Translations under genes and position numbers: made by a program | Notes under the pieces: generated by a model | What the model saw: the letters and a program-made list of their open reading frames with translations, nothing else | Databases searched by the model: none | What the model was told of the DNA's origin: nothing | Shown here: one piece after another, positions 9,475 through 46,537 of the stretch | Layout: the number at the start of each line of letters is the position of its first letter | Numbering within the stretch: the first letter of the stretch is position 1 | NCBI RefSeq assembly: GCF_035573695.1 | Contig: NZ_CP121694.1 | Location: 410,501-474,500, forward strand | Reading direction: 5' to 3' | DNA: 64,000 bases | From: Metallumcola ferriviriculae | GTDB taxonomy: Bacteria > Bacillota > JADQBR01

Positions 9475-9490
9475 GATATACTACACTAGG

Positions 9491-9517
9491 GGGAGCGGGA
9501 GCTCCCTTTATTTTTTA
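9491..9517 (+). terminator. Terminator after rpsR
   Basis: GGGAGC and GCTCCC form a stem with a four-base loop, followed by TTTATTTTTT. Confidence 0.85.
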
Positions 9518-9548
9518 ATCAAAGTATAGGTATTTGCTGATTAATTTA

Positions 9549-9650
9549 ATGGGCTGGTAAGGGGGGGATGCCCCCTTACGGTTGCGGGCGGTGCTCAGTC
9601 CTGCAGGGGCGCCGAAGGGGTGGCAAACCCCTGAAGATGATGCTTTTAGC
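9549..9650 (+). repeat. Intergenic hairpin repeat, copy A
   Basis: An intergenic block between the rpsR terminator and the MazG-like gene. Its core is a nine-base-pair hairpin (GTAAGGGGG at 9557-9565, CCCCCTTAC at 9571-9579) followed by GGTTGCGG, GTGCTCAG, a second hairpin of AGGGGT with ACCCCT, then CCTGAAGATGATGCTTTTA. The same ordered landmarks recur at 13556-13630 and, more weakly, at 46377-46440. No reading frame is evident. Confidence 0.55.
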
Positions 9651-13479: not shown

Positions 13480-13490
13480 ATAGATAACGA

Positions 13491-13515
13491 ACCGACCTGT
13501 TTAGGTCGGTTTTTT
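13491..13515 (+). terminator. Terminator after the Lon gene
   Basis: ACCGACC pairs with GGTCGGT around a six-base loop, followed by a T-run. Confidence 0.9.
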
Positions 13516-13555
13516 GAATGTATAGGAGGAATTTGGTGTTCGATAATTTCCTATA

Positions 13556-13630
13556 CATGGGGGTTGGTGAGGGGGTATGCCCCCTTGCGATTGCGGAGTG
13601 CTCAGAAGACCTGAAATGCTTTTATTCATC
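13556..13630 (+). repeat. Intergenic hairpin repeat, copy B
   Basis: It shares the order of landmarks with copy A: GGTTGGTGAGGGGG, CCCCCTTGCG, ATTGCGGA, GTGCTCAG, CCTGAA, ATGCTTTTA. The hairpin (13567-13575 with 13580-13588) keeps nine pairs although two of them differ from copy A, changing to G-U pairs rather than breaking. A spurious 67-codon frame (13518-13721) crosses it. Confidence 0.55.
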
Positions 13631-46270: not shown

Positions 46271-46300
46271 AAATGCCGGGTGACTCCCCGGCATTTTCTT
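46271..46300 (+). terminator. Terminator after the sigma/anti-sigma operon
   Basis: AAATGCCGGG pairs with CCCGGCATTT around a six-base loop, followed by TCTTA. Confidence 0.8.
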
Positions 46301-46376
46301 ATAGTGTATAGACTTCCATGCCGCTGGCGCGGCACCATCAGTTGAATGAAAATAGGTATTTTCAGGACAGGAAATT

Positions 46377-46440
46377 ATGGGTTGCGGGTAGGGGCGTGCT
46401 CTCTTACGGCTTGTCATGCGAGATCGTAAAGACATCGAAG
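46377..46440 (+). repeat. Intergenic hairpin repeat, degenerate copy C
   Basis: Resembles copies A and B: ATGGGTTGCGGGTAGGGG, CTCTCTTACGG, then CTTGTCATGCGAG. A seven-pair hairpin, partly through G-U pairs, forms between GTAGGGG (46388-46394) and CTCTTAC (46401-46407). Similarity is lost further on. The gap 46301-46537 holds no gene. Confidence 0.35.
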
Positions 46441-46537
46441 GGAGTATTGCAAATTTTTAGTTTTTGGCAGGAATATCCCGTGGTAAATGGAATATAAAAA
46501 AATGAATGAAAATTCACTCAAAAGCGAGGGGATAGTT

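Follow-up and report, generated by a model that had tools for sequence, protein, structure and literature searches.

Group II introns insert into DNA without duplicating their target. Those of class IIC insert directly behind Rho-independent terminators (PMC8919778), and their target recognition depends on a DNA stem-loop together with T-rich bases (PMC10190682). Among the mobile elements compared here, group IIC introns alone are known to target intrinsic terminators, which they do by means of a ribozyme. A small repeat of Metallumcola ferriviriculae occupies the same kind of site. It is best explained, with a probability of about 0.88, as a recently active, terminator-targeting, non-autonomous mobile family, of which the three copies in the window (the whole 64-kb stretch of DNA analysed), termed A, B and C, are defunct or decaying members.

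The repeat in the window and in the genome

All three window copies are intergenic, carry no ORF and lie behind a terminator, as had been stated in a preliminary description made from the sequence of the window. Their features are as follows.

9487..9521, + strand: intrinsic terminator, target of copy A; stem-loop at 9487-9510, then a T-rich tail; behind the S6/S18 ribosomal genes
9522..9650, + strand: copy A of the repeat; a subfamily II member whose 5' hairpin has eroded; R2 model E 4e-11
9557..9579, + strand: P2 hairpin of copy A, the hairpin of the preliminary description; arms GTAAGGGGG/CCCCCTTAC; R1 match at 9551-9578, E 8e-4
13490..13517, + strand: terminator, target of copy B; AACCGACCTGTTTAGGTCGGTT TTTTGA; behind a lon-type protease gene
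13518..13627, + strand: copy B of the repeat; has P1, P2 and the 3' arm of P4 (GAAATGCTTTTATTC); R1 model 44.9 bits, E 3e-11
13518..13558, + strand: P1, the 5' terminal hairpin, of copy B; ATGTATAGG...CCTATACAT; overlooked in the preliminary description
13567..13588, + strand: P2 hairpin of copy B; arms GTGAGGGGG/CCCCCTTGC
46271..46303, + strand: terminator, target of copy C; stem AAAATGCCGGG/CCCGGCATTTT, then CTTATA; read by eye
46304..46450, + strand: copy C of the repeat; variant with an insert of about 60 nt in the P1 5' arm, common to genomic copy L054; 3' limit uncertain

The ordered landmarks reported earlier for A and B lie far beyond chance, scoring 48 in local alignment when none of 500 shuffles exceeded 26, and the nine-pair hairpin is present in both copies, with two changed pairs retained as G-U. 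The limits given for these copies were too short; they started inside A and B, whose true starts are 9522 and 13518, and in B a whole extra hairpin had been left out. The claim that C preserves the hairpin region only did not hold as it was put, as C compared with A is at chance level (score 25, equalled by 3/500 shuffles) and is missed by both the R1 and R2 models. Copy C is a family member because its region 46296-46390 aligns with L054 (score 110; shuffled maximum 26). The corresponding scores are 79 for copy A (9551-9632) against an element of genome G209 (shuffled maximum 26) and 88 for copy B against the consensus (shuffled maximum 25). The terminator of copy C is missing from the pattern-scan list because its T run sits within the stem, and the gene upstream encodes a zinc-finger (zf-HC2) protein similar to an anti-sigma factor. 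The insert in the P1 5' arm (ACTCC...GGTATTTTCAGGACAG), found at 46304-46390 of the window and in L054, is possibly another small mobile sequence.

Rather than the three copies first counted, the 3.72-Mb genome (G000) contains about 47 repeat loci. The family was traced from copy A: a genome search with it matched sequences of the pattern TAAGGGGGCATGCCCCCTTA at several sites, and extension of these gave a consensus. Full copies are 177-358 bp long and contain four hairpins (P1-P4). At the 5' start of the consensus is P1, ATGTATAGGAAATTAT-GGGTTGTGG-ATAATTTCCTATACAT, followed by P2, GGGGGTTGTTAAGGGGGnnnnCCCCCTTA, and then AGGAGGGTCACAGCGAAGCG; P3 is CCTAGGGAACC-AGG-GGTTCCCTGGG, and the 3' end is formed by P4, GAACAAAAGCATT...AATGCTTTTGTTC. 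The intact element measures 177-190 bp, and its short copies here 177-179 bp; four copies of 358 bp have extra internal hairpin modules, and intermediates exist. Two copies at 3.10 and 0.89 Mb (L111 and L113) have 0 mismatches over 179 bp, the 358-bp copies have 4-12 differing positions among them, and other copies are eroded or cut down to their first 20-60 nt. This age spread is the trace expected of a mobile family.

Several loci have unusual arrangements. One internal hairpin module of the 358-bp form (L097-L100) also stands alone elsewhere (L124, 2692772-2692816), which suggests modular assembly or nested insertions. Two copies (L040/L059) lie about 240 bp apart, and in L208 and L074 elements begin directly behind the P4 of another copy, as if P4 were the target. 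Most of the element is gone from L122 (614994), L121 and L123, in which the 3' half of P4 is fused either to the T-tract of a terminator or to what is left of a P1 behind such a tract; these are candidates for internal deletions or partial insertions. Co-orientation with replication would hold for 44 of the 47 copies if the origin lies at about 0.34-0.42 Mb, an origin fitted to these same copies, and the genes of the window are mostly co-oriented anyway; for these two reasons the leading-strand bias is given no weight here.

Rfam gave nothing above threshold in the window except tRNAs, and the full repeat copies gave only sub-threshold matches to Clostridiales-2 (20.8-24.5 bits against a threshold of 58.6). 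Plasmid records, phage records and viral contigs contained no match to the repeat. No description of the family was found in the open literature, subscription journals being outside the scope of the search.

A DNA search placed the repeat in 10 of 398 sampled Bacillota genomes, and also in the MAG Soudan_17, which belongs to another genus of the same family as M. ferriviriculae. The covariance model R1 found it in 18 of the 398, representing 16 genera and 11 families; copy numbers in this survey are minimum values, as no more than six candidates were scored in each genome. Two subfamilies are recognizable, of which subfamily II carries GCGGGGTGCTCAGG...CCGCCGAAGGGGCGGCAGCCCC behind P2. Copy A belongs to subfamily II, as it is matched at E 4e-11 by model R2, built solely from other genera.

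Structure, mobility and target of the repeat

The preliminary description had left the choice between a small mobile repeat and a structured RNA, and had proposed a covariance-model search and a covariation test. Further copies exist, as described above, and covariation is beyond chance. In nine elements from eight genera, 89.9% of cells in the four-helix structure are paired, and the covariation score is 0.280 compared with 0.122 (sd 0.015) in shuffles, none of 500 of which reached it; slid structures scored 0.046-0.102. Covariation between genera maintains the P1 stem, 7 of whose 16 pairs are altered on both sides. Its outer part is nearly wholly rewritten across genera and still paired (ATGTATAGG, CGTTCAGG, TTCTTAGG, GGCATAGG, TTGCATAGG), so the end of the element is defined more by structure than by sequence. 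Watson-Crick pairing in P1 is almost always perfect, and wobbles are few. The mispairs of P1 number 16 G-U to 6 A-C in G000/G002, where one inherited change dominates, and 6 to 5 in other genera. These counts are silent on the selected strand, and P1 may thus act as RNA or as single-stranded DNA. Of the structured-RNA option, the conserved structure stands.

The mobile-repeat option gained support from identical unlinked copies, from non-orthologous copies in sister species and from clean empty sites. Genomes G013 and G097 represent species of one genus in which intact copies are 178 bp long and 98-100% identical. These intact copies occupy non-orthologous loci, and a single old fragment is common to both species. 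Orthologous empty sites were located by searching with joined flanks. At four filled/empty pairs (L151/L172, L155/L174, L153/L178 and L154/L192), the sequence of the filled site is that of the empty site with the element added. The placement is ambiguous by 0-1 nt (2 nt at L154), and there is no target duplication; small indels near these pairs represent ordinary divergence. The repeat has thus been recently active in the M. ferriviriculae genome and in one sister-species pair.

At a further locus, L163, a shortened copy of 45 nt stands where about 17 nt of flank are gone relative to the empty site, consistent with a later deletion. Truncation at the 3' end had been considered as a sign of target-primed synthesis and was rejected; later deletion towards the free side explains the shortened copies, because one of them also lost this flank.

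The same junctions bear on the proposal that the repeat is a classical MITE derived from a DDE insertion sequence. Small size, lack of an ORF, an interspersed distribution and palindromic sequence would all suit a MITE. The two ends, however, show no inverted-repeat relationship (ATGTATAGG compared with GAACAAAAG), being unrelated and each forming its own hairpin; there is no target duplication, and the genome yielded no insertion sequence with these ends that could be the parent. A MITE origin is therefore improbable.

Almost all copies have their P1 beginning immediately after the T-tract of an intrinsic terminator unrelated to the repeat, in one constant orientation. Copies A, B and C obey this rule, behind the S6/S18 operon, the lon-type protease gene and the zf-HC2 gene, respectively. 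A terminator-like stem and T-tail precede 39 of 54 junctions, compared with 4.6% of random positions, and at least five T in the last 9 nt are present at 87% of junctions, compared with 10% of random positions; since the random controls contain coding DNA, enrichment over purely intergenic DNA is smaller than these raw figures. After one of the 54 junctions was dropped as a palindrome artefact, T frequency over the remaining 53 was 89, 92 and 85% at positions -7, -6 and -5, falling to background beyond -10. Other sampled genera show the T-tract at 28 of 31 junctions, compared with 14% of random positions; the three junctions with no evident T-tract are L196, L198 and L225. No fixed tetra- or pentanucleotide precedes the insertion, only T-richness, and position -1 may be A, G or T. 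The sites of the repeat thus have the hairpin and T-rich tract of a group IIC-type target. Selection for harmless sites may add to targeting among old copies.

A constant position behind genes, together with strong structure and covariation, might also be expected of a structured RNA with a function, or of a 3' regulatory element, that the host retains, for example as a termination backup or for transcript protection. Against this, the repeat varies in presence between sister species at orthologous sites, its copies are identical across unrelated genes, and many of them are truncated. In addition, no single gene class was associated with it at the loci inspected, and its position behind terminators is one where transcription should be low. 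Host function is accordingly very improbable as an explanation of the family.

Candidate mobilizing enzymes

Insertion of the mobile repeat places the P1 end against the T-tract of a terminator, in one orientation and without target duplication. An enzyme supplied in trans would recognize two hairpins of the element, P1 and P4, and, in the target, the hairpin with its T-tract, a recognition that would be simplest if the DNA were single-stranded. The target is probably tolerated because a site behind a terminator spares coding sequence and, usually, the operon. After insertion, copies would erode from the far end, because deletions at the near end would destroy the terminator. No autonomous copy, with both ends around an ORF, was found in this genome. 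The sole long insert between the ends is a group IIC intron, which interrupts two copies, and no other genomic copy has an ORF between intact ends.

One candidate route is single-stranded DNA transposition by an HUH (Y1) or similar transposase that recognizes hairpin ends, comparable to IS200/IS605 and REP/RAYT. The repeat has hairpins at both ends, near-perfect Watson-Crick palindromes, no target duplication and an orientation fixed relative to the target strand, and the genome contains eight RAYT-like Y1 transposase genes (L135-L142). None of the eight, however, has a repeat within 1.5 kb, and several are flanked by a different palindrome, GGTGTCAGGCACC. Further, no fixed tetranucleotide precedes the insertion, and the hairpins of the repeat lie at its extreme ends and not inside them. 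The route is thus possible, and we put it forward tentatively. Two of the Y1 genes, L141 and L142, are almost identical neighbours separated by about 4.7 kb.

A second candidate route is that of a bacterial SINE-like retroelement, in which the reverse transcriptase of the resident group IIC introns would make DNA copies of the repeat RNA. There are six reverse transcriptase loci in the genome, four of which are one identical group II intron (L085 at G000:C1:276000-281500, L086, L144 and L145). The intron protein has its nearest matches in the solved group IIC enzymes of 7uim and GsI-IIC and scores above the group II cut-off (TIGR04416). All four introns lie about 7-10 nt behind a hairpin, and their last bases at the junction are TTAAT. 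Introns and repeat both stand behind hairpin-plus-T sites, and thus both read the same landmark. Two of the four introns are docked behind the P2 hairpin of the repeat, interrupting repeat copies, and a third is separated by no more than about 2 nt from the start of a repeat remnant. Neither the introns nor the repeat duplicate their target on insertion. The targeting of terminators by group IIC introns (PMC8919778), through the stem-loop and T-rich bases (PMC10190682), likewise favours this route.

Against it, Rfam matched no group II ribozyme domain, including domain V, in the repeat copies, whereas the resident intron, a positive control for this search, matched RF00029 and RF02001. Truncated copies of the repeat retain the terminator-side end, the opposite of the 5' loss from a sense transcript, and the near-perfect Watson-Crick pairing of P1, with few wobbles, does not favour RNA. 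Copying by the intron reverse transcriptase is thus unlikely. The analogy with SINEs as a whole, in which a protein-free structured element would spread behind terminators through borrowed group IIC target recognition and reverse transcriptase, is likewise rather doubtful. Much of the remaining probability falls to another or unknown enzyme as the mobilizer of the family.

Comparison with known systems

Tests of defining features set the repeat apart from MITEs, group II introns and REP/RAYT systems, and it is absent from Rfam. It is frequent enough in Bacillota to be relevant to annotation, as it lies behind many genes and has no Rfam entry. Its covarying terminal hairpin is a rare case of a mobile-element end set by structure rather than by sequence.

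BOX elements of Streptococcus pneumoniae resemble the repeat in being small, ORF-free, modular, strongly folded and interspersed, with variable internal modules. They differ in having terminal inverted repeats and target duplications, and the available portion of their description mentions no terminator targeting (PMC3049150). SPRITE, a pneumococcal Rho-independent terminator-like element, is similarly tied to gene 3' ends and terminators. According to the same source, SPRITE is itself terminator-like, with an 18-bp stem and a U tract and with AAAA/TTTT ends (PMC3049150), whereas the repeat lies behind pre-existing, unrelated terminators. REP/REPIN sequences with RAYT (Y1) genes are, like the repeat, palindromic, ORF-free, non-autonomous and spread genome-wide. 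They are much shorter, have tagged ends and are linked to a RAYT gene (general knowledge; see also the abstracts of PMC3733652 and PMC2817692); the repeat, in contrast, is carried by no Y1 gene of the genome.

Group IIC introns share with the repeat a position directly behind intrinsic terminators, a single orientation, the lack of target duplication and a similar spacing from the target hairpin, and they are likewise widespread in Bacillota. They differ in containing a ribozyme (Rfam D1-D4, domain V) and, usually, in encoding a reverse transcriptase; the repeat lacks both. A much smaller, ribozyme-free element that selects the same target would represent either another way of targeting terminators or a parasite of group II introns that has gone unrecognized.
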